From positions 6,253,367 through 6,317,366 of the forward strand of contig NZ_CP031320.1 in NCBI RefSeq assembly GCF_003355155.1: a stretch of 64,000 bases of DNA, read 5' to 3'. Below, piece after piece: positions 27,973 through 39,711 of the stretch; the stretch's first letter is position 1, and the number at the start of each line of letters is the position of its first letter. The position numbers were made by a program, and so were the translations under genes. This DNA is from Streptomyces armeniacus. GTDB taxonomy: Bacteria > Actinomycetota > Actinomycetes > Streptomycetales > Streptomycetaceae. Under the pieces are notes generated by a model, which worked only from the letters and a program-made list of their open reading frames with translations, searched no databases and had not been told where the DNA came from.

Positions 27973-28563
27973 ATGACCGCCGCGCTCGCGCCACCCCTAC
28001 CGCCCGCACCCGTTCAGGCCCTGATCGTCGTGGACGTGCAGACGGCGTTCGTCACCGGCACGGCCGCCGTGCCCGGCGCGGCCCGGCTGCTGCCGCGGGT
28101 CGAGGACCTGGTGGCGCGGGCGCGTACGGCAGGCTCGCTGGTCGTCCACCTCCAGAACGACGGCCCGCCGGGCGCGGACGACGAACCGGACACGCCCGGC
28201 TGGGAGTTGTACCTGCCGGTGGCCGAAAGCCCGCGCGAGACGGCGCTGCGCAAGACGGAGGACGACGGCTTCGCGGGCACGCCGCTCGGCGGACTCCTCG
28301 ACGCGGCAGGCGTACGGGACCTGGCCGTGTGCGGTGTGATGTCCGAGATGTGCGTCAGCGCGACGGCCCGTACGGCGCTGGCGCGCGGCCACCGCGTCGT
28401 CGTACCGCACGACGCGCACGCCACGCAGAACATCCCGGCGGCGCCCGGCATCAGTGGGCCCGTCCCGGCCGCCATGGTGTCGCGGGTGGCCGAGTGGGCG
28501 CTCGGCGACGGGGCCGAGATCGCCGCACACGCCGCCGACGTCGCCTTCGCCCCGCCCGGCTGA
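27973..28563 (+). CDS. Isochorismatase-like cysteine hydrolase
   Basis: A 196-residue protein starting at ATG 27973. It has the catalytic Asp in ALIVVDVQTAF, the Lys in TALRKTEDDGF and the Cys in GVMSEMCVSATARTALARGH, the full triad of nicotinamidase/isochorismatase-type hydrolases. The CVSATAR motif following the cis-peptide VMSEM is typical. The substrate could be an amide or N-carbamoyl compound. It lies 68 bases after the SnoaL-like gene, same strand, and could be co-transcribed. Confidence 0.88.
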   Translation: MTAALAPPLPPAPVQALIVVDVQTAFVTGTAAVPGAARLLPRVEDLVARARTAGSLVVHLQNDGPPGADDEPDTPGWELYLPVAESPRETALRKTEDDGFAGTPLGGLLDAAGVRDLAVCGVMSEMCVSATARTALARGHRVVVPHDAHATQNIPAAPGISGPVPAAMVSRVAEWALGDGAEIAAHAADVAFAPPG

Positions 28564-28580: not shown

Positions 28581-29597
28581 CTACCCCTTCGCGATGAACC
28601 CGTTCTCGCGGAGGAAGCGCAGCGCCGCCTCGTCCGGTGTCCTGCCGTCCAGGTCGACCATCGCGTTGAGGTCGATGACCGTCTCCTTGGTGAGCTCGCG
28701 GCCCAGGCGCTCCGCCAGCTCCCGCAGCTCAGGGTGCTTCCGCAGGGTGTCCTCGCGGAGAGTGAGGGCCGCGAGCTCCGTCGTGAAGTGGCCCTTGTCG
28801 TCCGTCAGTACCTTCAGGTCCAGGGACTCCAGGCGGGCGTCCGTCGTGAACACCTCGGCGAGCCGGCAGGGGCTGCCCTTCGCCACGTTGACGTAGTTGA
28901 GGGCGAGCGCGTTCTGGTAGACCTGCGGCGACGGGAACGAGACGCCGTACGTCTTCTGGAGCGCCCGGATCTCGCGGTCCAGGAACTCCGAGGCACCGCA
29001 CAGCGTCAGCTCGTCCGGGTGCTCCTCGCCGAGCCGCTTCAGGTCGCTGAGCTTCTCCACCTCGCCCACGGGCCCGTCCGCGTCGCCCGCACGCGCGATG
29101 GCGTACTGGTTGCCGAACCGGGCGGGCCCGAGCCACTCGATGCCGTGCTTCTCGGCGTCCTCGCGTGCCGTCGCCTCGTACTGCCGCTTCGACCCCTGCA
29201 CCGGCCGGTCGTGGCCGAGGAACTGGGTCCAGCCGGTGCCGCTGTACTCCCAGTACATGTCCACGTCGCCGCTCTTGAGCGCGCCGCGCACGATGGCGGA
29301 GCCGTTCAGGCCGGTCTGGTCGGCCGTACGGGCGCCCGCCGCGCGGAGTGCGTAGATCATGATCTTGCCGAGGATCTTCTGCTCCGTGAACTCCTTCGAG
29401 CCCACCGTGAACTCCGCGCCGTCCAGGTCGAAGTCCTTCGCCAGCGACCCGCCGCGCAGCTCGCGCGCGCCGACCGAACCGGTGTCGCCCGCCGCGCCGG
29501 AGCAGCCGCTCAGCGCGGGCACGGCCAGTGCGGCGGCCAGGGCGAGCAGCACCGCGAGCCGCCGTGGGGTTGTCCTTGGGGTGCGCACGGCGTGCAC
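28581..29597 (-). CDS. OpuC-type osmolyte-binding lipoprotein
   Basis: About 338 residues. The start is one of several GTG codons at 29588-29600 after AAGGAAGG; I give 29597. The signal peptide ends in the lipobox LSGC. The mature part is a glycine-betaine/choline binding protein of the OpuAC/OsmX group: FTVGSKEFTEQKILGKIM, LKSGDVDMYWEYSGTGW, YGVSFPSPQVYQNALALNYV. It delivers a quaternary amine to the permease pair encoded upstream. It is the last gene of the four-gene minus-strand ABC operon. Confidence 0.85.
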   Translation of the reverse strand: MHAVRTPRTTPRRLAVLLALAAALAVPALSGCSGAAGDTGSVGARELRGGSLAKDFDLDGAEFTVGSKEFTEQKILGKIMIYALRAAGARTADQTGLNGSAIVRGALKSGDVDMYWEYSGTGWTQFLGHDRPVQGSKRQYEATAREDAEKHGIEWLGPARFGNQYAIARAGDADGPVGEVEKLSDLKRLGEEHPDELTLCGASEFLDREIRALQKTYGVSFPSPQVYQNALALNYVNVAKGSPCRLAEVFTTDARLESLDLKVLTDDKGHFTTELAALTLREDTLRKHPELRELAERLGRELTKETVIDLNAMVDLDGRTPDEAALRFLRENGFIAKG

Positions 29598-29623
29598 CAC
29601 CTTCCTTTCCGTGTCCGGATGCG

Positions 29624-30439
29624 TCACAGGCCGCGCGGCCGCAGGAAGTCCTCGGCCATGCCCGCCAGCCAGTCGATGAACAGGGCGAGTACGGCGACGA
29701 GCACGCTGCCGGTGACGAGGACGAGGTTGCGGCTGGAGCTGATCCCGTTCGAGATGACGTCGCCGAGCCCGCCCGCCCCGATGAACGTGGCGAGCGCGAC
29801 CGTTCCCACGGTGATCACCAGCGCCGTACGGACGCCCGCGAGCATCACCGGTACGGCCAGCGGCAGTTCGATCCGCCACAGCACCGCCCCGCGCGTCATC
29901 CCCATGCCCTCGGCCGCCTCGATCACCGAGCGGTCCACCTGCTGGAGCCCTGCGATGGTGTTGCGGAGGACAGGCAGGATGCCGTACGCGACGAACGCGA
30001 TGACCGCGATCTGGTTCACGCCGAGGCTGACGAAGGCGACCGCCAGCAGCACGATGAGCCCCAGCGACGGCAGCGCCTGCCCGATGCTCGCGACGGCGAG
30101 CACCGGCCCGGCGATACGGCGCGCCCAGCGCCGCGTCAGCAGCACACCGAGCGGAATGGCGATCACCAGGATCAGGACGGTGACGACGGCGGTGAGCTCC
30201 AGGTGCTTGACCGTACGGCTCACCAGGTACTCGGAGTTGAGGCTGCGCTCCTCGATCAGGTCCCGCTGCTGCGAGGAGACGTGCAGGGCGAGCACGAGCA
30301 GTACGACACCGAGCCCGAGCGGGGTGAGGGCGTAGCGCAGCAGCGCGGCGCGCCTCGGGCGCGCGGGCGCGCGTGTCGGCGCCGATACGGGCGCGGGTGT
30401 GGGCGCCGGCGCCGGTGCGGTGGACGTGGATGCGGGCAT
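29624..30439 (-). CDS. Glycine betaine/choline ABC permease
   Basis: A 271-residue membrane protein starting at ATG 30439. After a Pro/Ala-rich tail-like N-terminus there are about six membrane segments and the EAA loop region QVDRSVIEAAEGMGMTRGAV. GQALPSLGLIVLLAVAF is typical of ProW/OpuCB permeases. It pairs with the second permease at 31632-32279 to form the channel. Confidence 0.87.
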   Translation of the reverse strand: MPASTSTAPAPAPTPAPVSAPTRAPARPRRAALLRYALTPLGLGVVLLVLALHVSSQQRDLIEERSLNSEYLVSRTVKHLELTAVVTVLILVIAIPLGVLLTRRWARRIAGPVLAVASIGQALPSLGLIVLLAVAFVSLGVNQIAVIAFVAYGILPVLRNTIAGLQQVDRSVIEAAEGMGMTRGAVLWRIELPLAVPVMLAGVRTALVITVGTVALATFIGAGGLGDVISNGISSSRNLVLVTGSVLVAVLALFIDWLAGMAEDFLRPRGL

Positions 30440-30444
30440 CGCGG

Positions 30445-31629
30445 CTACGCCTCCTGCAACTGGTCGGAGCCGTCCGTACGGCCGCGCCCGTGCACCGTGT
30501 TGATCAGCGCGCGCAGGGAGTCCATCTCCACCACGCCCCGGTACCGGCCGTCGCCGTCCACCACCGCCAGCACCGACGAGTTGGCCGCCAGCATGTGGTC
30601 CAGCGCGTCGAAGAGGCTGTCGCCCGGACCGAGCGCCCGCAGCAGCGGCAGCGCCCCGCCGACCTCCCGCCCGGCGCCGGTGACCGGCAGCCAGCTCGTC
30701 GGCCGGTCGTCGTCGTCCAGGACGAGCAGGTGATCGCGCTCCGTACGGGCGGCTGCCGTACGGCGCTGCTCGCCGTCCGCGGACTCCGCGACGGTCGGCC
30801 ACGCCGGCAGCTCCAGGCTGTCCATCCGGGTCAGCGACAGCCTCCGTACGGAGGCGCCCGCACCGATGAAGTCGGAGACGAAACCGTCGGCGGGGTCGGC
30901 CAGGATGCGTTCGGGGGTGTCGTACTGCAGCACCTTGCCGTTGTCGGCGAAGATCGCGATCAGATCGCCCATACGGACGGCCTCGTCGATGTCGTGCGTG
31001 ACGAAGACGATCGTCTTCCGCACCTCCGCCTGGATGCGCAGGAACTCGTTCTGCAGCGACTCCCTGTTCAACGGGTCGATCGCACCGAACGGCTCGTCCA
31101 TCAGCATCACCTGCGGATCGCCGCCCAGCGCCCGCGCGACGCCCACCCGCTGCTGCTGGCCGCCGGAGAGCTGCTTGGGGTAGCGGCGGCGGTACGTGTC
31201 CGGGTCGAGGCCGACGAGCCGCAGCAGCTCGTCGACGCGTGCGGTGACGCGCTGCTTGTCCCAGCCGAGCAGCCGCGGGACGGTGGCGATGTTGTCCGCC
31301 ACCGTACGGTGCGGGAACAGGCCGCCCTGCTGGATCGTGTAGCCGATACGGCGGCGCAGCAGGTGCGCGGGCACCTCGGTGACGTCCTTGCCGTCCAGGT
31401 GGATGCGGCCCGAAGTGGGCTCGATCAGCCGGTTGATGAGTTTCATCGTGGTCGTCTTGCCGCAACCGGACGGGCCGACGAACGTCACGATCCGCCCCTC
31501 GGGGATGTCGAGCGTCAGCTCGTCCACCGCCGCCTCGGACTGGCCGGGGTAGCGCTTCGTCAGCCGGTCGAGGCGGATCATGGGGTCCACGTGGGCGTTC
31601 GCGTTCGCGTCAGGAGTCTTTTCGGTCAT
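30445..31629 (-). CDS. Glycine betaine/choline ABC ATPase with CBS domains
   Basis: A 394-residue protein starting at ATG 31629. It has Walker A GPSGCGKTTT, signature LSGGQQQRVGVARAL, Walker B VMLMDEPFGAIDP and the H-loop FVTHDIDEA. The C-terminal 130 residues contain a CBS pair (LDHMLAANSSVLAVVDGDGR, YRGVVEMDSL), known in OpuA/OpuC as ionic-strength or nucleotide sensors. It sits between the two permease genes, with only 2-5 base gaps. Confidence 0.9.
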   Translation of the reverse strand: MTEKTPDANANAHVDPMIRLDRLTKRYPGQSEAAVDELTLDIPEGRIVTFVGPSGCGKTTTMKLINRLIEPTSGRIHLDGKDVTEVPAHLLRRRIGYTIQQGGLFPHRTVADNIATVPRLLGWDKQRVTARVDELLRLVGLDPDTYRRRYPKQLSGGQQQRVGVARALGGDPQVMLMDEPFGAIDPLNRESLQNEFLRIQAEVRKTIVFVTHDIDEAVRMGDLIAIFADNGKVLQYDTPERILADPADGFVSDFIGAGASVRRLSLTRMDSLELPAWPTVAESADGEQRRTAAARTERDHLLVLDDDDRPTSWLPVTGAGREVGGALPLLRALGPGDSLFDALDHMLAANSSVLAVVDGDGRYRGVVEMDSLRALINTVHGRGRTDGSDQLQEA

Positions 31630-31631
31630 GA

Positions 31632-32279
31632 TCAGGCACCGAGTCCCTTGGGTGTGGTGAGTCGGTTCACGACGGCGTAAGCCAGATCGAACAGCACGGC
31701 CAGCAGCACGATGCCCGCCGCGCCCTCGATGGTCAGATAGATCGCGAACGGCGTGCCCGCGGTGGCCAGGCCGTCCAGAATGAGATTGCCGAGCCCGGGC
31801 CCGTTCACCGCCGCCGCGATGGCGGCGATGCCCAGCAGCAGCTGGGTGGCCACGCGCAACCCGGTGAGCAGCACCGGCCAGGCCAGGGGCAGTTCGACCG
31901 TCGCCAGCACCCGCGCCCGGCCCATGCCCATCGCGCGGGCCGACTCGACGACGGCCGGATCCAGCTCCCGCAGTCCCACGATCGTGTTCCGTACGACGGG
32001 CAGCAGCGCGTACAGCGTGAGCGCGACCACGGACGGGCCGCTGCCCAGCCCGAGCGGCGTGATGAGCAGCCCGAACAGCGCGTACGACGGGATCGTCAGC
32101 AGCAGCCCGGCCACGGCCAGCACGGCGGCGCGGGGCGCGCCTGTACGGTACGTCAGCACCGACACCGGCACCCCGATCAGCACGGCCAGCCCGAGCCCCT
32201 GGAGCACCAGGAGCGCGTGCGCGACCGTGGCGTCCAGGACGTCCGTCCAGTTCCCCTGGAGGAATTCGAAGAAGTTCAT
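31632..32279 (-). CDS. Glycine betaine/choline ABC permease, first gene of operon
   Basis: A 215-residue membrane protein starting at ATG 32279, after CTGGAGGA-like sequence (MNFFEFLQGNWTDVLDATVA). The EAA loop ELDPAVVESARAMGMGRARV and segments such as AVLAVAGLLLTIPSYALFGLL match OpuC permeases. The stop is 3 bases from the ATPase start. The order permease-ATPase-permease-binding protein is standard for this transporter. Confidence 0.87.
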   Translation of the reverse strand: MNFFEFLQGNWTDVLDATVAHALLVLQGLGLAVLIGVPVSVLTYRTGAPRAAVLAVAGLLLTIPSYALFGLLITPLGLGSGPSVVALTLYALLPVVRNTIVGLRELDPAVVESARAMGMGRARVLATVELPLAWPVLLTGLRVATQLLLGIAAIAAAVNGPGLGNLILDGLATAGTPFAIYLTIEGAAGIVLLAVLFDLAYAVVNRLTTPKGLGA

Positions 32280-32296
32280 GGCGGCCGGTCCGGCGG

Positions 32297-33298
32297 CTAG
32301 GCGTTGGCCGTCGCGGGCGCGGGCGCGGGCGCGGGCGCGGATGCGGGTGCGCTTGCGTGCGGCGCCGCGGCGGGCGCGGGTACGGGCTGGGCAGCCGGGC
32401 CGTGCGCGAACGCCTCCGCGTAGAACGCGTCCAGCTCCTCCACCAGCGCGCGGAACGTGGGGTGTTCGTCGAACATCCACTCCGTGTGCCCGGCCCCCTC
32501 GATGAGGTGCAGCCGCTTCGGCTCCCGCGCGTGCTCGTACAGCGCCCGCGCCTCCTCAGGGAGGTGCAGCCCGTTCTCGGCACCGTGCACGACGAGCAGC
32601 GGGCGCGGTGCGATCCGGTGCACGACGCTCTGTGGCGAGAAACGGAGAAGCATCTCCGCGGACTCCAGCGAGACGCCCGAACCGAAGCCCGGCGCCTTGT
32701 ACAGCTCCTCGCCCACGTAGCCGTCCGTCCGGCCGTCGCGGTCCAGCCGCACGATGTCCCACGGCGACGTGATCTCCGAACGGCCCCGCTCCGCCCGCCG
32801 CCCGCGGTCTCCCGCGATCCGCTCCAGCAGGCTGTTCCAGGTGGCCTCGTCGTGCATGTTCCGGGTCGAACGGGTGCCGTCACTGATGCAGTTGACGGAC
32901 GCCACCGCCCGTACGCGCAGATCATCCGCCGCCTCCGCGACGACCACGCCGCCGCCCATGCCCCAGCCGAGCAGCGCGATACGGCCCGCGTCGAGCAGCT
33001 CCGCCGCGGCGGCCCGGTCCACGGCGGCCCGCAGATCCTCCGCCCACTCCTGCGGCACCAGCCGGCCGCGCTCGCCCTCGCTCGTACCGAAACCGCGGTA
33101 GTCGAAGGCGACGACGGCATAGCCGCGGGCCGTCAGCGCGCGGGCGAAACGCTCGGGGTGGATCACCTTGAGGCCCTGGTAGCCGGAGGCGGGAATCACC
33201 ACCGGATACGGCGCGCCCGCCCCGTTGTCGTCCGGGAGGTGCAGGTCGGCGTCGAGGCGCAGCCCGCTGCTGAAGAAGGGAAAGGCATGGGTGTGCAC
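32297..33298 (-). CDS. Alpha/beta-hydrolase-fold protein lacking the nucleophile Ser
   Basis: A 333-residue protein starting at ATG 33298. The fold signs are clear: YPVVIPASGYQGLKVIHPER, AVVAFDYRGFGTSEGERGRL, the nucleophile elbow, PRPLLVVHGAENGLHL and a final His in GAGHTEWM. At the elbow the usual G-x-S-x-G reads GWGMG, with Gly at residue 113 where Ser, Cys or Asp is expected. It is therefore probably not a classical hydrolase, but may bind a ligand or use other chemistry. The C-terminus is an Ala/Pro repeat tail. It lies 17 bases upstream of the osmolyte transporter operon on the same strand and may share its transcript. Confidence 0.8.
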   Translation of the reverse strand: MHTHAFPFFSSGLRLDADLHLPDDNGAGAPYPVVIPASGYQGLKVIHPERFARALTARGYAVVAFDYRGFGTSEGERGRLVPQEWAEDLRAAVDRAAAAELLDAGRIALLGWGMGGGVVVAEAADDLRVRAVASVNCISDGTRSTRNMHDEATWNSLLERIAGDRGRRAERGRSEITSPWDIVRLDRDGRTDGYVGEELYKAPGFGSGVSLESAEMLLRFSPQSVVHRIAPRPLLVVHGAENGLHLPEEARALYEHAREPKRLHLIEGAGHTEWMFDEHPTFRALVEELDAFYAEAFAHGPAAQPVPAPAAAPHASAPASAPAPAPAPATANA

Positions 33299-33359: not shown

Positions 33360-33425
33360 GTGTGGTGCGGTGCGGTGCCTTGCGGTGCGGTGCGTTGCGT
33401 TGCGTTGCGTTGCGTTGCGTTGCGG
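33360..33425. repeat. Pentanucleotide tandem repeat (TGCGG/TGCGT)
   Basis: About thirteen consecutive 5-bp units, first TGCGG-type and then a clean run of TGCGT, between the IclR gene and the alpha/beta-hydrolase gene. The length is likely to vary between strains. It sits in the leader of the hydrolase gene. Confidence 0.75.
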
Positions 33426-33454
33426 TTTCGCGTGTTGCGGGGTTACGTGCGGTG

Positions 33455-34237
33455 CTACGCGGTGGCCTGCTGCTGGCCCGCCATAGCGCGGGAGACCTGC
33501 CGGGCCGCCGAACAGACCACGCGGCCCGCCCGGTCCAGCTCGGAGCCCATCCGGTACGTGGGCCCCGACACGTTGAGCGCGGCGACGACACGCCCGCGGA
33601 AGTCCCGTACGGGAGCCGCCGCGGCGACCAGCCCCGCCTCGAACTCCTCCTGCACCAGGACGTACCCCCGCTCCCGCGCCCGCTGGAGGCGGGCCAGGAA
33701 GTCCTCCGCGTCGCGCGGCGCGGCGGGCTCACCGGCGCCGAAAGGGGTGTCCGCGAGGAGGGCCCTCACCTCGTCGTCGCTGTGGTCGAACAGCAGCGCC
33801 CTGCCGGAGGACGTGGTGTGCAGCGGGGTCACCCTGCCCACCCAGCCCGTCGCCTGAACGGCGCGCATCGGGCTCTCCGACAGCACGGTCAGCGCGCCGT
33901 CCTCGGTGAGCACGGTGAGATGCACCCGCTCCTTGAGCACGTTGACGAGGCTCCGCAGTACGGGGGGTGCCTCGGCGAGCAGCCGCGGCCGTCCGGCGTT
34001 CACTGCCATCGTGAACACGCGCCAGCCCAGCCGGTACACGAGCGAGTCGCGGTCCCGCTCGACGAGGCCGACCTGATCGAGCGCCTTCAGCGCGCGGGAG
34101 ACCTGGGTCTTCTCCCGGCCCACGCGCCGCGCGATCTCGACCACCCCGAGCCCACCGCGCTCGGCCGCCTCGTCGGACCCTAGGGCCGTCAGGATGGCGA
34201 GCGTGCGGTGAAGGCTCGACGAACTGTCCGTTGCCAT
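33455..34237 (-). CDS. IclR-family transcriptional regulator
   Basis: A 260-residue protein starting at ATG 34237. The N-terminal wHTH reads SLHRTLAILTALGS, GVVEIARRVGREKTQVSRAL and QVGLVERDRDSLVYRLG. The C-terminal ligand domain has VHLTVLTEDGALTVLSES, GWVGRVTPLHTTSSGRALLF and the closing LVAAAAPVRDFRGRVVAALN motif. A composite site at 34269-34296, upstream of its start, recurs before the DUF6282 and nitrilase genes, so it probably controls both itself and that catabolic set. Confidence 0.88.
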   Translation of the reverse strand: MATDSSSSLHRTLAILTALGSDEAAERGGLGVVEIARRVGREKTQVSRALKALDQVGLVERDRDSLVYRLGWRVFTMAVNAGRPRLLAEAPPVLRSLVNVLKERVHLTVLTEDGALTVLSESPMRAVQATGWVGRVTPLHTTSSGRALLFDHSDDEVRALLADTPFGAGEPAAPRDAEDFLARLQRARERGYVLVQEEFEAGLVAAAAPVRDFRGRVVAALNVSGPTYRMGSELDRAGRVVCSAARQVSRAMAGQQQATA

Positions 34238-34268
34238 GCGGGGAGCATGCCGTGGGTTTGTGCCGGGG

Positions 34269-34296
34269 GACAACCCCCGTTGCCACCAGAGCAACC
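34269..34296 (+). promoter_or_regulatory. Composite operator, copy 1 (iclR promoter)
   Basis: Three half-sites in fixed spacing: GACAAC, four bases, GTTGCC, four bases, GAGCAACC. It lies 32 bases upstream of the iclR ATG and matches the copy at 38728-38755 in 19 of 20 half-site bases. Confidence 0.7.
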
Positions 34297-34341
34297 GGCC
34301 TCGGCCCTGGCCGATGCCTGCGGCCTCAGCCACGGCCAACC

Positions 34342-34366
34342 CAGCCCGTCCGGCGTTTGAGGACGG
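34342..34366 (+). repeat. Streptomyces interspersed repeat, copy 1
   Basis: AGCCCGTCCGGCGTTTGAGG plus ACGGC: a copy, inverted relative to the next two, of the short palindromic repeat common in Streptomyces intergenic DNA. Confidence 0.7.
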
Positions 34367-34434
34367 CCTTGGCCACGATGTGCGTGCGTTTGGCCGCGGG
34401 CCGTTGGTTCACCGGCGGGCCGGTGGCCGCTTGG

Positions 34435-34460
34435 GTCCGTCCTCAATCGCCGGACGGGCT
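34435..34460 (+). repeat. Streptomyces interspersed repeat, copy 2
   Basis: GTCCTCAATCGCCGGACGGG then CT: same family, opposite orientation to copy 1. Confidence 0.75.
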
Positions 34461-34509
34461 GGAAAGGGCGGGGATTTGTCCGCACGCCGCAGCCACGTTG
34501 TGGCTGATG

Positions 34510-34537
34510 GCCGTCCTCAATCGCCGGACGGGCTTGA
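34510..34537 (+). repeat. Streptomyces interspersed repeat, copy 3
   Basis: Identical in its core CCTCAATCGCCGGACGGGCT to copy 2, 75 bases on. A partial fourth copy (GTCGGACGGGCTTG) lies at the end of the FAD oxidase gene. Confidence 0.75.
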
Positions 34538-34557
34538 TTGCGTGGCTGAGGGCCGCT

Positions 34558-37500
34558 TCACGTGTCGGACGGGCTTGGGCGTGGCGCAGGGCGGAGGAGT
34601 TCCGCCAAGTGGAGGGCGTGGCGGGCCGTGGACTGTTCTATCTGCGTGCGGCACGAGAAGCCGTCCGCCAGGACCACCGTGTCCGGGGCCGCGTCCCGTA
34701 CGGCGGGCAGCAGTACGCGTTCCCCGGCCGCCCGGGACACCTCGTAGTGGCCGCGTTCGAAGCCGAAGTTGCCTGCCAGCCCGCAGCAGCCGGACTCCAG
34801 TCGCTCCTGGTCGACGCCCGCGCGGCGCAGCAGGTCCGCGTCCGGGGTGAAGCCCAGTTCCGCGTGCTGGTGGCAGTGGACCTGGGTGATCGCGCGGCGG
34901 TTGACGCGGGGCGGCTCCCAGTCGGGCGGGGCGTGCGTGCCGAGGAACTCGGCGAGCGTGTGCACCGCGCCCGCCGTACGTTCCGCCTGCGCGCCCGGCA
35001 GCAGCTGCGGCAGGTCGCCGCGCAGCGCCGCCGTGCAGCTGGGTTCCAGGCCGACCACGGGCGTACCGGACGCGACGGCCGGGGCGAGCGCGGCGAGCGT
35101 ACGGGTCATCACCCGGCGGGCGACGCCCAGTTGGCCGGTGGACACCCAGGTCAGGCCGCAGCACACGGGCCCGCGCGGCAGGACGACGCGGAAGCCCGCG
35201 TCCTCCAGCACCTCCACCGCCGCACGCGGCACCCGCGGGCTGAGGAAGTTGCCGAAGGTGTCCGGCCACAGGAGCACTGGCGGCCGCTCGGCCTGGCGCG
35301 CAGGGCCCGCCTGGCGCGCCGGGCCCGCAGGGCCCGAACGCACGCCCCCGCGGCGCCGGAACCACCGCGTGAACGGTTCCTCCGCGAACTCCGGCAGCGC
35401 CCGTTCCGGTGCGATCCCGCCCGCCCGCTTCAGGAGCGCGGCCAGCGGCCCGCCGCGCGTGGCCGCGTTCACGAGGCGAGGCGCGAGGGCGGCGGCGCGG
35501 GACCAGAGGGGGAGCCAGCCCATGGAGTAGTGCGAGGCGGGGCGCAGCCGGCGGGCGTAGTGGTGGTGCAGGAACTCCGCCTTGTACGTGGCCATGTCCA
35601 CGCCCACCGGGCAGTCGCTCTTGCAGCCTTTGCAGGACAGGCACAGGTCGAGCGCGTCGCGTACCTCCGTGGAGCGCCAGCCGTCCGTGACGAGTTCGCC
35701 GGTGAGCATCTCGGACAGCAGGTGGGCGCGGCCGCGGGTGGAGTGCTGTTCCTCCTTGGTGACCATGTAGCTGGGGCACATCACGCCCGTGCTCTCCGTC
35801 TGGCGGCACTTGCCGACGCCCACGCAGCGCCGTACGGCGCGCGGGAAGCTCCCGTCGTCCTCCGCATAGGCGAACACCGGCAGCACCCCACCCGTACGGA
35901 GACCCGTGTCCGTACGGAGACCCGTGTCCGTACGGGGGCCCGCGCCCGTACGGGAGCCCGTGACCGTTGCGGGCCGCAGGTCCGCATCCAGGGGCGAGGG
36001 GCGCACGATGACGCCGGGGTTCAGCAGCCCGCCCGGGTCCCACAGCGACTTGAACTCGCCGAAGGCGTCCAGCAGTCCGGGCGGGAACATGCGCGGCAGC
36101 AGCTCCGAGCGGGACTGCCCGTCGCCGTGCTCCCCGGACAGCGAACCGCCGTGCGCGGCGACGATCCCGGCGGCCTCCTCCATGAACGCGCGGAACGCCG
36201 CGACGCCCTCCCCGCCCGCGCCTCCTTCCGCCAGCCCGAAGTCGATCCGTACGTGCAGACAGCCCTCGCCGAAATGCCCGTACACCACGCCCCGGCGGCC
36301 GTGCGCGGCCATCAGCCGCTCGAAGTCCCGCAGGTACGCGCCGAGCCGTTCCGGCGGCACCGCGGCGTCCTCCAGCCCGGGCCACGCCTCCGCGCCGTCC
36401 GGCAGGCGGGTCGCGAGCCCGGCGCCCTCCTCGCGGATGCGCCACAGCCGCCGCCGCGCCGCCGGGTCGGTGACCACGCGCGTACCGGCGGGCCGCGGCC
36501 CGTCCCCGCCCGTGGCGGCCGCCGCCAACGCCCGCCCGCGCGCCGCCGCTTCGGCGTCGTCCGCGCCGCCCGTCTCCGCCAGCAGCCAGGCCGCTCCCTC
36601 CGGGAGCCCGACGGCGGCGCCCGACGGCTGCCGCGCCTGCCACATCCGTACGAGTGTCGCGTCCAGCCCTTCGAGCGTCAGAGGGGCGTGCGCGAGCAGC
36701 GCCGGTACGGCGTCGGCGGCCGTCGCCGGGTCCGGGTAGCCGAGCACGGTGAGCGCGCGGGCGGGCGGTGCCTCGACCAGCCGCAGCGTCGCACCGAGCA
36801 CCACCACGCAGCTGCCCTCGGAACCGGTCAGCGCGCGGGCCACGTGGCAGCCGTTCTCCGGGAGCAGCCGGTCCAGCGCGTAGCCGGAGACGCGGCGGGC
36901 CAACTCGGGCATGCCGGTACGCAGTTCCGCCAGATGCCGTTCGGTGAGCGCGCGCAGCCCGGCGTACACCTGGCCCGTACGGTCGGGGCGCGCCGCCAGC
37001 CGCGCCAGCTCGTCGCGCGGCGTCGCGCCGACCGTCATGCGGGTGCCGTCGGGGAGGAGCACGTCCAGCGACTCGACGTTGTCGGCGGTGGTGCCCCAGG
37101 CGACGGAGTGCGAGCCGCACGCGTTGTTCCCGATCATGCCGCCCACGGTGCAGCGGGCGTGGGTCGAGGGGTCGGGCCCGAATGTGAGCCCGTACGGCGC
37201 GGCCGCGCTCCGTACGGTGTCCAATACCGCCCCCGGCGACACCCGTACGGTGCGCTGTTCCGCGTCCACCGGCCCGACGTCCGTCAGATGCCGGGAGGTG
37301 TCGAGCAGGATGCCGCCGCCGAACGCGTTCCCCGCCACGCTGGTGCCGCCGCCCCGCGTCACCAGCGGCACGCCGTGCGCGTGGCAGGCGGCCACGGTCG
37401 CGAGGACGTCGTCGGTGTCGCGCGGCAGGACGACACCGCCGGGCGCGCGGCGGTAGTTGGAGGCGTCGGTGGTGTAGAGGGCGCGGGTGCCGGCGTCGAA

Positions 37501-37647
37501 CGAGACCCGGCCGCGTACGGTCCGGCGCAGCTCCGCCTCGACGGCGGCCGACGCGGCCGGTTCGTACGCGGCCGACGCGGCCGGTTTGTACGCCGCGGCC
37601 GTCTCGTACGGCTCGGACGGCTCTGGGGTGGTGCGGGCGCTGCTCAC
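34558..37647 (-). CDS. FAD-linked oxidase fused to Fe-S/CCG-domain oxidoreductase
   Basis: A 1029-residue protein starting at GTG 37647. The N-terminal half is a PCMH-type FAD domain (LVTRGGGTSVAGNAFGGGIL, CTVGGMIGNNACGSHSVAWG, ALTGSEGSCVVVLGATLRL) and a FAD_C domain (GRRGVVYGHFGEGCLHVRID, LSGEHGDGQSRSELLPRMF). A repeat-coded Arg/Thr/Gly linker follows (DTGLRTDTGLRTG). The C-terminal half has 4Fe-4S motifs (CVGVGKCRQ...GVMCPS, CLSCKGCKSDCPVG) and CCG domains (VCCGLTW, SGCCGLAGNFGFE). It resembles D-lactate/glycolate/2-hydroxyglutarate dehydrogenases and should oxidise a 2-hydroxy acid, passing electrons to the respiratory chain. It is downstream of the DUF6282 gene, probably in one operon. 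Confidence 0.88.
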   Translation of the reverse strand: MSSARTTPEPSEPYETAAAYKPAASAAYEPAASAAVEAELRRTVRGRVSFDAGTRALYTTDASNYRRAPGGVVLPRDTDDVLATVAACHAHGVPLVTRGGGTSVAGNAFGGGILLDTSRHLTDVGPVDAEQRTVRVSPGAVLDTVRSAAAPYGLTFGPDPSTHARCTVGGMIGNNACGSHSVAWGTTADNVESLDVLLPDGTRMTVGATPRDELARLAARPDRTGQVYAGLRALTERHLAELRTGMPELARRVSGYALDRLLPENGCHVARALTGSEGSCVVVLGATLRLVEAPPARALTVLGYPDPATAADAVPALLAHAPLTLEGLDATLVRMWQARQPSGAAVGLPEGAAWLLAETGGADDAEAAARGRALAAAATGGDGPRPAGTRVVTDPAARRRLWRIREEGAGLATRLPDGAEAWPGLEDAAVPPERLGAYLRDFERLMAAHGRRGVVYGHFGEGCLHVRIDFGLAEGGAGGEGVAAFRAFMEEAAGIVAAHGGSLSGEHGDGQSRSELLPRMFPPGLLDAFGEFKSLWDPGGLLNPGVIVRPSPLDADLRPATVTGSRTGAGPRTDTGLRTDTGLRTGGVLPVFAYAEDDGSFPRAVRRCVGVGKCRQTESTGVMCPSYMVTKEEQHSTRGRAHLLSEMLTGELVTDGWRSTEVRDALDLCLSCKGCKSDCPVGVDMATYKAEFLHHHYARRLRPASHYSMGWLPLWSRAAALAPRLVNAATRGGPLAALLKRAGGIAPERALPEFAEEPFTRWFRRRGGVRSGPAGPARQAGPARQAERPPVLLWPDTFGNFLSPRVPRAAVEVLEDAGFRVVLPRGPVCCGLTWVSTGQLGVARRVMTRTLAALAPAVASGTPVVGLEPSCTAALRGDLPQLLPGAQAERTAGAVHTLAEFLGTHAPPDWEPPRVNRRAITQVHCHQHAELGFTPDADLLRRAGVDQERLESGCCGLAGNFGFERGHYEVSRAAGERVLLPAVRDAAPDTVVLADGFSCRTQIEQSTARHALHLAELLRPAPRPSPSDT

Positions 37648-37784
37648 GGCGGGGCCGCCTTTCGGTGCGTACGGAATGGGGTGCGGGCGCGCGGGACCGG
37701 GGACGCGCGGGCGTGCCGGGGCAGGGAGGCGTACGGCGGGTGCGGCGAGGCGCGCGGGCCGCGTACGGCGCGGGGGCGCGCGGC

Positions 37785-38696
37785 TCACCGCGGGGTGACC
37801 AGCGCCTCCGGCAGTTCGGACGCGCACGCCCGCAACGCGCCGCGGTCCAGGCCCTCGCGGGCGAGCGTGTCGACGAGGAGTTCCAGCGCCTCGGGCGGGC
37901 TGGGGGAGTCGGGCTGCCCGGCGTCCGAGGAGAGGACGACCCGGTCCAGGCCGACCCGGGCGGCGTACGCCGCGAGCCGCGCCGCCGTCATGCCGGGCTG
38001 GTGCAGCAGTTGGAAGGTGGTGATCTCGGCCAGCGCGCCGCGCCCGGCCAGTTCGGCCGCCTCGGCGGCGGGCATGGCGGGGACGGTGTAGCCGGGGTGG
38101 GTCAGCAGCAGCCTGCGTACGCCGAGTCCGCGCGCGGTCTCCAGCAGCCAGCGCACCTCGGGCGTGCTGAGGTGCCCGGTGGCGAGCACGGCATCCGCCT
38201 CGGCGACCATGCGGCAGACGGCACGTACGTCCTCGGCGATGCCCGGCCGGTCGTACGGTCCCGCGTCCGGCCCGTCGTACGGTCCCGCGTCCCGCCCGTC
38301 GTACGGTCCCGTCTCCGTTCCGGTGGCGACCGGCGGCACGGCGTACGCGTGCCGGGACAGGTCCGTACGCGCCCCGCACAGGCTGGGCAGCCCCGCGTCA
38401 CGCTGGGTGTGCGCGTCGGCGGTGGGCATCCAGACGACGCGCCCGCCCGCGCCGAGGCAGGCGGCGACGGCGGCCGGATTCACGCCGCCGGTGTGCTGGT
38501 TGAGGGCGATGCCGCCGTGGACGCGCAGCGGGTGGTGCGCGCGGGAGGCGGCGGCCGCGCGTCCGACAGTGGACTCGTAGTGGGCCTTGAGCACGCACCC
38601 GGTGAAGCCCGCGCGCGCGTAGGCCGCGACCACGTCGTGGTCGTCGGCCCGGCGCGGGGTGACATCGGGTGCGGCGTGCACATGGAGGTCGAACAC
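37785..38696 (-). CDS. DUF6282-like metal-dependent hydrolase
   Basis: A 303-residue protein starting at GTG 38696 (VFDLHVHAAPD). The TTG at 38753 in the same frame lies inside the operator and is less likely. The N-terminal DLHVHAAPDV is a metal-binding HxH, and GCVLKAHYEST, GGIALNQHTGGVNP, VWMPTADAHTQRD, LATGHLS and LLLTHPGY are further His-rich strands of an amidohydrolase-like barrel. I place it in DUF6282 from memory. A three-fold GPYDG-type repeat (coded by 24-bp repeats at 38250-38320) interrupts the middle. It probably hydrolyses or decarboxylates an intermediate of the same pathway as the FAD oxidase. Confidence 0.7.
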   Translation of the reverse strand: MFDLHVHAAPDVTPRRADDHDVVAAYARAGFTGCVLKAHYESTVGRAAAASRAHHPLRVHGGIALNQHTGGVNPAAVAACLGAGGRVVWMPTADAHTQRDAGLPSLCGARTDLSRHAYAVPPVATGTETGPYDGRDAGPYDGPDAGPYDRPGIAEDVRAVCRMVAEADAVLATGHLSTPEVRWLLETARGLGVRRLLLTHPGYTVPAMPAAEAAELAGRGALAEITTFQLLHQPGMTAARLAAYAARVGLDRVVLSSDAGQPDSPSPPEALELLVDTLAREGLDRGALRACASELPEALVTPR

Positions 38697-38727
38697 GGGC
38701 CCAGGCTGCGCCGGGGGAGACGCGGAG

Positions 38728-38755
38728 GGCAACGGTAGTTGCCGGGGGAGCAACC
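38728..38755 (+). promoter_or_regulatory. Composite operator, copy 2 (DUF6282 promoter)
   Basis: GGCAAC, four bases, GTTGCC, four bases, GAGCAACC: same blocks and spacing as the iclR copy. The first two blocks form a perfect palindrome. It lies 31 bases upstream of the GTG start of the DUF6282 gene and downstream of the nitrilase stop. Confidence 0.75.
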
Positions 38756-38771
38756 ACCGTACGGCCTGCTC

Positions 38772-39602
38772 TCAGTCCACGCCCTCCTGCATCAACCGCC
38801 CCACCTCCCGGCTCACCAGCCCGAAGCGCGGCTCCTCCAGCAGCGGCATCTCCCGGCGCCGGCGCCGCACCGCGCTCACGTCGACGTCCACGACGGTCAG
38901 CGCCTCCGCGTCGCGCGGCGCCTCCGCGACGACCGTGCCCCAGGGGTCGAGTACGCGTGAACCGCCCCAGAACGACGCCTTGCCCTCCTCCCCGACCCGG
39001 TTCACGAACACCACCCAGCACTGCTGCAGCCGCGCGATGTTGAGCAGCAGGTCCTGCCAGTACACGGCGGTGTCGATGGCGCCCGGCGCCATCCCGGCCG
39101 CACTGTTGGTCGGCACGAACAGGATCTCCGCGCCGTCCTGCGCGGCCAGCCACGGCAGTACGGGCTGCCAGGCGTCGTTGCAGATCAGCGTCGCCGCGCG
39201 GGCGTGCGGGGTGGGGAACGCGCGCAGGGCGTGCCCGGGGCTGAAGTGCTTGCGCTCCTCCCAGTCGAGGTAGTTGGGCAGGTAGAGCTTGCGGTGGGTG
39301 TGCAGCACGGTGCCGGACGCGACGTAGCTCGCGGCGTTGTAGCGGCGCAGACGGCCGTCCTCGTACAGCCCGACGAGCACGTCGGGGCCGTAGCCGGACA
39401 GCTCGGCCAGCCGCACGTCCTCCGTGCTGATCGACTCGTCGCCGGGCACCGAGCCCAACGCGTAGCCGTGCAGGCTCAGTTCGGGGAAGATCACCACGTC
39501 GGCCCGCCGGCCCGCGGCCTCCTTCACGGCGGACCTGGCCTTGTCCACGTTCGCCTGTACGTCCCCCAGTACGCAGTCCAGCTGCGCCAGCGCGATCCGC
39601 AC
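38772..39602 (-). CDS. Nitrilase/C-N hydrolase family amidase
   Basis: A 276-residue protein starting at GTG 39602, behind GAGGGG. The catalytic triad is visible: E41 in VIFPELSLHGY, K105 in THRKLYLPNY and C141 in LICNDAWQP. The supporting Glu lies in DWEERKHFS. The LICNDAW context is shared with N-carbamoyl-amino-acid hydrolases and NAD-synthetase amidase domains. It should hydrolyse an amide or carbamoyl bond in the cytoplasm. A variant of the IclR-type operator lies about 80 bases upstream, so it is likely part of the same regulon as the FAD oxidase and DUF6282 genes. Confidence 0.87.
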   Translation of the reverse strand: MRIALAQLDCVLGDVQANVDKARSAVKEAAGRRADVVIFPELSLHGYALGSVPGDESISTEDVRLAELSGYGPDVLVGLYEDGRLRRYNAASYVASGTVLHTHRKLYLPNYLDWEERKHFSPGHALRAFPTPHARAATLICNDAWQPVLPWLAAQDGAEILFVPTNSAAGMAPGAIDTAVYWQDLLLNIARLQQCWVVFVNRVGEEGKASFWGGSRVLDPWGTVVAEAPRDAEALTVVDVDVSAVRRRRREMPLLEEPRFGLVSREVGRLMQEGVD

Positions 39603-39682
39603 CGCCAACCACCCCTCTTCGCTCGTGCCTTCGGTCTCCGGGAGCTGCGGTTCTACTGGCACGCCGCGGGCGCGGCAAGGCG

Positions 39683-39711
39683 AGTTGCTCGCCGGACAAC
39701 GCGGTTGCGGG
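39683..39711 (-). promoter_or_regulatory. Composite operator, copy 3 (nitrilase promoter)
   Basis: On the minus strand: CGCAAC, three bases, GTTGTC, four bases, GAGCAAC. The second and third blocks keep the spacing of copies 1 and 2; the first block is one base closer. It lies 81-109 bases upstream of the nitrilase start. Confidence 0.55.

Follow-up and report, generated by a model that had tools for sequence, protein, structure and literature searches.

A gene cluster of Streptomyces armeniacus very likely forms a single regulon, in which the local IclR-family regulator would control its own gene and the surrounding blocks through an operator of three short boxes. The cluster lies in a stretch of 64,000 nucleotides (contig NZ_CP031320.1, positions 6,253,367 to 6,317,366; hereafter the window) of an 8.08 Mb genome that consists of one contig. 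From high to low coordinates, all on the - strand, it comprises genes for a nitrilase, a DUF6282 protein, an FAD/Fe-S oxidase, the IclR regulator, an alpha/beta hydrolase and an OpuC-type importer that extends to 28581. As evidenced by a scan of the genome collection and by the tree of the regulators, the closest relatives at this locus belong to Streptomyces. The sites, their conservation, the cluster and the protein families were established by computation, and phylogenetic footprinting supports the reading as a candidate regulon.

The operator core is GCAAC-N4-GTTGC-N7-GCAAC, or GTTGC-N7-GCAAC-N4-GTTGC in gene direction, and it was found before three genes of the cluster:

34270 to 34295, + strand: operator before iclR, ACAAC-N4-GTTGC-N7-GCAAC, with 1 box mismatch; its centre is 45 bp before the ATG.
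38729 to 38754, + strand: operator before the DUF6282 gene, GCAAC-N4-GTTGC-N7-GCAAC, with 0 box mismatches; its centre is 45 bp before the GTG.
39675 to 39700, + strand: operator before the nitrilase gene, GCAAG-N4-GTTGC-N7-ACAAC, with 2 of 15 box bases differing; its centre is about 85 bp before the GTG.

The boxes alternate in direction with gaps of 7 and 4 at all three sites, and both the spacing and the orientation relative to the gene are identical. A sequence-only reading of the window had described a 28-bp site before iclR and DUF6282, and these sites are exact: the pattern GRCAACNNNNGTTGCCNNNNGAGCAACC has two exact matches in the window, at 34269-34296 and 38728-38755 (both +), where 0.02 are expected (mean of 100 dinucleotide shuffles of the window), and no third match appears in the window even when 3 mismatches are allowed. 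The same reading had seen a close variant at the nitrilase promoter; a site is indeed present there, although the wording understates it, since spacing and orientation are the same and the difference is confined to the two box bases listed above. Note that this promoter carries a fourth alternating box, GTTGC at 39704-39708, 3 bases past the third, which probably explains why it had been read differently. Upstream of the FAD/Fe-S oxidase nothing site-like was found (best match with 7 mismatches), and no match with fewer than 5 mismatches lies upstream of the oxidase, alpha/beta hydrolase, first-permease or binding-protein gene.

The scan of the genome collection provided 50 loci of relatives with a DUF6282 gene, 890,841 bases in total. 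Twenty of them are of the window's type and were designated clade A, a choice made after the first site and gene-match results were known, and the remaining 30 constitute clade B. In clade A, 58 promoters of iclR, DUF6282 and nitrilase genes were compared with GTTGC-N7-GCAAC-N4-GTTGC at up to 2 mismatches. A site with gaps of 7 and 4 was present in 44 of the 58 (iclR 19/19, DUF6282 13/20, nitrilase 12/19), and each of 131 alternative gap pairs was matched by at most 10 of the 58, the maximum of 10 occurring at gaps 4 and 7. In 17 of the 19 clade-A iclR genes a distance of 44-46 separates the site from the point where the matched protein starts. All 50 loci together contain 62 sites at 2 mismatches (gaps of 7 and 3 or 4) versus 5 in the shuffled control, and 21 versus 0 at 1 mismatch; this control was one set, with letters shuffled inside 500-base blocks. 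Of the 62 sites, 61 lie at most 160 bases upstream of a match to a cluster gene, and the remaining one is found inside the oxidase gene of locus L072. The alpha/beta hydrolase block is inverted in L053 and L060, and a site is present before it there; one clade-A nitrilase promoter fits gaps of 7 and 5 at 2 mismatches. The shuffles, together with conservation at one spacing, rule out an origin of the sites by chance or low complexity. The check in orthologous promoters that the sequence-only reading had proposed thus showed position, spacing and orientation to be conserved, and the outcome it had named as refuting, a lack of conservation, did not occur.

We also considered the site as a general trait of DUF6282 genes and rejected this, as 16 DUF6282 loci outside the cluster have no site at 2 mismatches. 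These 16, out of 18 loci (L092-L109), lack the alpha/beta hydrolase, the nitrilase and a close IclR match in stretches of 2.1-3.6 kb; their best site match has 3 mismatches (L095), and L101 and L102 show an IclR match at 29-31% identity. Of the other two, L108 is the window itself, and L106 holds part of the cluster with a best site at only 3 mismatches, which speaks against a fixed site at that locus. Of 296 genomes sampled from the phylum, 18 encode a DUF6282 protein above the cut-off, counting the genome of the window, and several of these 18 have no cluster, so that the cluster is uncommon.

In most clade-B clusters the genes all point the same way, often in the order iclR, alpha/beta hydrolase, importer, nitrilase, DUF6282 and oxidase, with the hydrolase located elsewhere in some. 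The pair GTTGC-N7-GCAAC precedes 24 of 25 clade-B iclR genes at 1 mismatch, and it is the third box that distinguishes the two clades: its gap is 5 in 23/25 and 4 in 0/25 iclR genes of clade B, versus 4 in 19/19 and 5 in 0/19 of clade A. Boxes 1 and 3 form a direct repeat, at a distance of 21 bp in one clade and 22 bp in the other; as this amounts to about two turns of the DNA, a tetramer facing one side of it is plausible. Before other clade-B genes the site is rare, with 0/25 for the nitrilase, 0/24 for the binding protein, 0/22 for the oxidase, 1/30 for DUF6282 (L082, gap 4) and 4/28 for the alpha/beta hydrolase, the last being gap-5 sites in loci where the hydrolase lies upstream of iclR (L070, L076, L078, L081). 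In the regulator tree the two spacings are split by one branch with a support of 100/99, corresponding to one change. The clade-A loci that have an IclR, the window and L082 fall on one side of this branch; L082 had been moved from clade B to the gap-4 group because of its DUF6282 site (2 mismatches), and no label was given to L067, whose site has 3 mismatches, or to L080, whose upstream stretch is too short. In the region of the recognition helix, two positions of the window protein, Q45 and A49, separate the clades without overlap: position 45 is Q in the window clade versus V/I/S, and position 49 is A/T/S versus Q/G. Six further regulator positions also separate the two clades without overlap.

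The genes of the cluster are the following:

38772 to 39602, - strand: nitrilase-superfamily amidase, GTG start at 39602 (PF00795, E 5.7e-35).
37785 to 38696, - strand: DUF6282 protein, predicted amidohydrolase-fold barrel, GTG start at 38696.
34558 to 37647, - strand: FAD/Fe-S 2-hydroxyacid oxidase (FAD_binding_4, FAD-oxidase_C, Fer4_8, CCG), an optional member.
33455 to 34237, - strand: IclR-family regulator of 260 amino acids, ATG start at 34237 (PF01614, E 1e-32; PF09339, E 1.4e-8).
32297 to 33298, - strand: alpha/beta hydrolase, conserved partner (PF12146, E 3.8e-18).
31632 to 32285, - strand: first ABC permease, OpuC/choline type (PF00528, E 2.8e-21).
30445 to 31629, - strand: ABC ATPase of 394 amino acids, from its translation and homology to the relatives' loci, start chosen by eye.
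29624 to 30439, - strand: second ABC permease of 271 amino acids, from its translation and homology to relatives, start chosen by eye.
28581 to 29594, - strand: OpuAC-type substrate-binding protein (PF04069, E 3.8e-45; best solved relative 8dp6, E 1.2e-29).

The starts given for DUF6282 and IclR match the proteins of relatives, and the IclR domains exceed their curated cut-offs (HTH_IclR 34.8 versus 22 bits, IclR_C 113.5 versus 24 bits). All genes named by the sequence-only reading are present on the - strand; its range holds for these, but the conserved unit reaches further left, to the alpha/beta hydrolase and the ABC importer (28581-32285). These were absent from it and accompany the cluster more regularly than the oxidase does. 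An isochorismatase beside the importer (27985-28563) does not belong to the families shared by 4 or more of the loci. Two repetitive stretches were observed near iclR. Tandem 5-base units (GTTGC/GGTGC) resembling operator half-sites fill 33360-33426 in the gap that separates iclR from the alpha/beta hydrolase gene; GTTGC occurs in this gap in 0/14 clade-A relatives examined, and in L045 the matches overlap and leave no gap. Repeats like CGTCCTCAATCGCCGGACGGGCT, direct and inverted, occupy 34333-34540, with the iclR operator on one side and the stop codon of the FAD/Fe-S gene on the other.

The gene set recurs among the relatives. Among the 37 loci that span 18 kb or more we found IclR in 37, the alpha/beta hydrolase and the nitrilase in 35 each, the binding protein in 32 and the oxidase in 22. 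Over all 50 loci, tblastn detected the alpha/beta hydrolase in 45 (E <1e-12), the ABC ATPase in 40 (E <1e-40), the first ABC permease in 39 and the second-permease query in 39 (E <1e-12), a number that may include matches to the first permease. The OpuC/ProX-type importer is complete, with an OpuAC binding protein, two permeases and an ATPase. In the window and in L044, L046 and L056, which are of the window type, the oxidase gene directly follows DUF6282 and is probably cotranscribed with it. Control of the nitrilase, DUF6282 and the oxidase by one regulator, as proposed from the sequence, is well supported for the first two, but the oxidase, which has no operator of its own, is linked to it only indirectly. 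A protein resembling MmgE/PrpD joins the cluster in 7 loci, with a Pfam assignment in L048; such genes lie in or beside the cluster at L048:16593-17918, L055:16423-17805, L063:6799-8115, L072:10774-12216 and L083:10822-12198, and the family yielded no lead on the identity of the pathway.

Enzymes of the amidohydrolase superfamily bind their metals through an HxH motif on strand 1, histidines after strands 5 and 6 and an aspartate after strand 8, with a bridging lysine or glutamate on strand 4. In the predicted model of the DUF6282 protein, residues H6, H8, H176, H201 and D259, invariant in 32 sequences, lie within strands 1, 5, 6 and 8 or directly behind them and thus fit this pattern by position; no bridging lysine or glutamate is seen on strand 4, and K38 on strand 2 is invariant as well, as is D95, which follows strand 4. 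The FAD/Fe-S oxidase scores 432 bits against the NCBIfam equivalog of YdiJ, the D-2-hydroxyglutarate dehydrogenase, below the cut-off of 1350, and by this measure it is a relative of YdiJ and not that enzyme. No pathway name emerged from the comparison with solved structures, NCBIfam or open-licence literature. The open-licence literature searched holds no mention of DUF6282 and, judged by titles and abstract openings, agrees with the statement made from the sequence that no pathway with this gene set has been described. A breakdown of the nicotine type, with a pair of amidase and alpha/beta hydrolase, was considered and dropped, as the listed solved relatives of the hydrolase (E 1e-8) do not name a nicotine-pathway hydrolase.

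We propose the following course of events. The IclR protein would bind GTTGC-N7-GCAAC-N4-GTTGC before its own gene and the neighbouring blocks, the first consisting of iclR and probably also the alpha/beta hydrolase and the OpuC-type importer, the second of the nitrilase-type amidase, and the third of DUF6282 and probably the FAD/Fe-S oxidase, until a substrate or intermediate relieved the repression. The importer would take up a small, probably cationic (betaine-like) nitrogenous compound, the three hydrolases could cleave its ester or lactone and amide bonds, and the oxidase would pass the oxidation of the resulting 2-hydroxy acid into the respiratory chain. The assignment of the substrate to a class of small, cationic (betaine-like), nitrogenous or amide-like compounds is tentative and derives from the importer family. 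As the protein families of this importer are those of osmoprotectant transporters, it might serve osmoprotection and lie beside the hydrolases only by accident. In clade B, however, it is located between iclR and the nitrilase-DUF6282 genes on one strand in several genera (Actinomadura, Geodermatophilus, Haloechinothrix), and we hold such an accident to be very improbable. Ergothioneine breakdown was considered on account of 8dp6, the best solved relative of the binding protein, which carries the name 'Osmoprotection protein' and is an ergothioneine binder; no ergothionase-like gene stood out, though no search aimed at one was made. The cluster links the DUF6282 family to genes that recur together and to a switch open to experiment, and its role is narrowed to one probable catabolic pathway.

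Several observations weigh against the regulon and pathway as proposed. The substrate class has the importer family as its single source, and the oxidase is optional, being found in 4/20 clade-A loci and 22/30 others. Fourteen of the 58 clade-A promoters have no site at 2 mismatches. Three of these genes evidently lie within operons, the nitrilase of L043 after the importer and DUF6282 of L050 and L051 after the nitrilase; no operon explanation is evident for the other 11, which are five DUF6282 promoters at 3 or more mismatches (L042, L049, L053, L054, L060) and six nitrilase promoters (L041, L045, L046, L047, L054, L086), including four with 3 mismatches. The local regulator is also not the sole candidate binder, as the genome encodes a second IclR-family protein, 29% identical, with a site of the same spacing near its gene:

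G000:C1:3426972-3426997, corresponding to L089:4973-4998: site near the second IclR gene, between genes for a D-serine-dehydratase-like protein and a PfkB-type kinase.
L090:4894-4919: further site of the same spacing, before a KDPG aldolase gene.

The architecture is therefore shared within the genome, and a second IclR-family regulon of the same three-box spacing, at the genes for the PfkB-type kinase, the D-serine-dehydratase-like protein and the KDPG aldolase, is probable. Such a regulator might even bind the sites of the cluster and leave the local IclR to control something else. These two sites differ in their letters from those of the cluster, however (GCAATG..GTTGCA..TGCAAC and GCAACG..GTTGCG..TGCAAT), and among the relatives a change of spacing goes with a change in clade of the local IclR, before whose gene the site is kept in all 19 clade-A and in 23 of the 25 clade-B upstream regions, so that we give this explanation little credit. 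Note that the three-box pattern at 1 mismatch occurs in 192 of 199 Streptomyces genomes, with the reversed control also matching many, and is therefore by itself no mark of this regulon; the host genome G000 has 5 matches versus 1 for the control, the fifth at C1:3516828 (L091). Among the matches listed, GCAAYG-N3-GTTGCR-N6-GCAAC recurs at 1 mismatch in many Streptomyces genomes, possibly as sites of a second IclR regulon.

The regulator probably acts as a repressor, to be released by the substrate or an intermediate, with promoter occlusion suggested by the position of the sites only. Against this stands that a sigma-70-like promoter was sought at the sites and not found, so that the sites could not be positioned with respect to any promoter element, and that some three-box IclR proteins, PcaU and PobR, are activators. 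Activation at these sites nevertheless seems unlikely to us, as their centres lie about 45 bp before the iclR and DUF6282 starts and thus probably over or near the promoter, and as autoregulation by IclR proteins is commonly repression. The latter is stated for GylR of Streptomyces in the accessible text of PMC9732521.

The cluster could represent an undescribed actinobacterial pathway that takes up and degrades a cationic compound of the amide type, and whose regulator has an operator with the third half-site shifted by exactly one base between two lineages, in step with residues of its DNA-binding domain. We regard this combined proposal as credible, with the balance tipping slightly the other way. 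If it is true, the two clades constitute a natural experiment on how an IclR tetramer chooses between two dimer geometries.

Among known systems, the operators of PcaU, PobR and HmgR share the third external half-site with the window operator and differ in the genes controlled, those of PobR and HmgR serving aromatic-acid catabolism. For the PcaU operator, the third external half-site is needed for binding, as cited in the accessible text of PMC8222616. GylR of Streptomyces clavuligerus is, according to the available portion of PMC9732521, an IclR-family repressor of its own gene and a catabolic operon. It resembles our case in the IclR-family control of its own and catabolic genes in Streptomyces and differs in its palindromic 18-bp core site, for which that portion mentions no third box, and in its glycerol genes. 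The closest counterpart is found in the work of Suvorova and Gelfand (2021; PMC8222616), which, in the part accessible, distinguishes two kinds of IclR-family sites with half-site gaps of 7-8 and 3-4, predicts alternating three-box sites combining both kinds for 32 ortholog groups in a study covering 181 groups, and suggests two alternative modes of dimerisation among these regulators. The three alternating boxes of the window, with a gap of 7 (group 1, subgroup GTT-11-AAC) and a gap of 4 (group 2 consensus 3-4), agree with this scheme. Judged by this layout, the window operator belongs to a known IclR architecture, and the three-block composite operator of the sequence-only reading is not new; an unusual operator type is not supported. 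The letters differ: the boxes are GTTGC here, unlike the consensus GTTYC of that text, the spacer is rich in G+C, and by eye the window sites deviate from the group 1 consensus GTTYCRYW3RYGRAAC in having G, not Y, at position 4 and a centre that is not A/T. The gap of 5 in clade B falls outside the range of 3-4 given there, and the one-base difference in the third box between two well-supported clades would provide a direct test of the suggested two modes of dimerisation.

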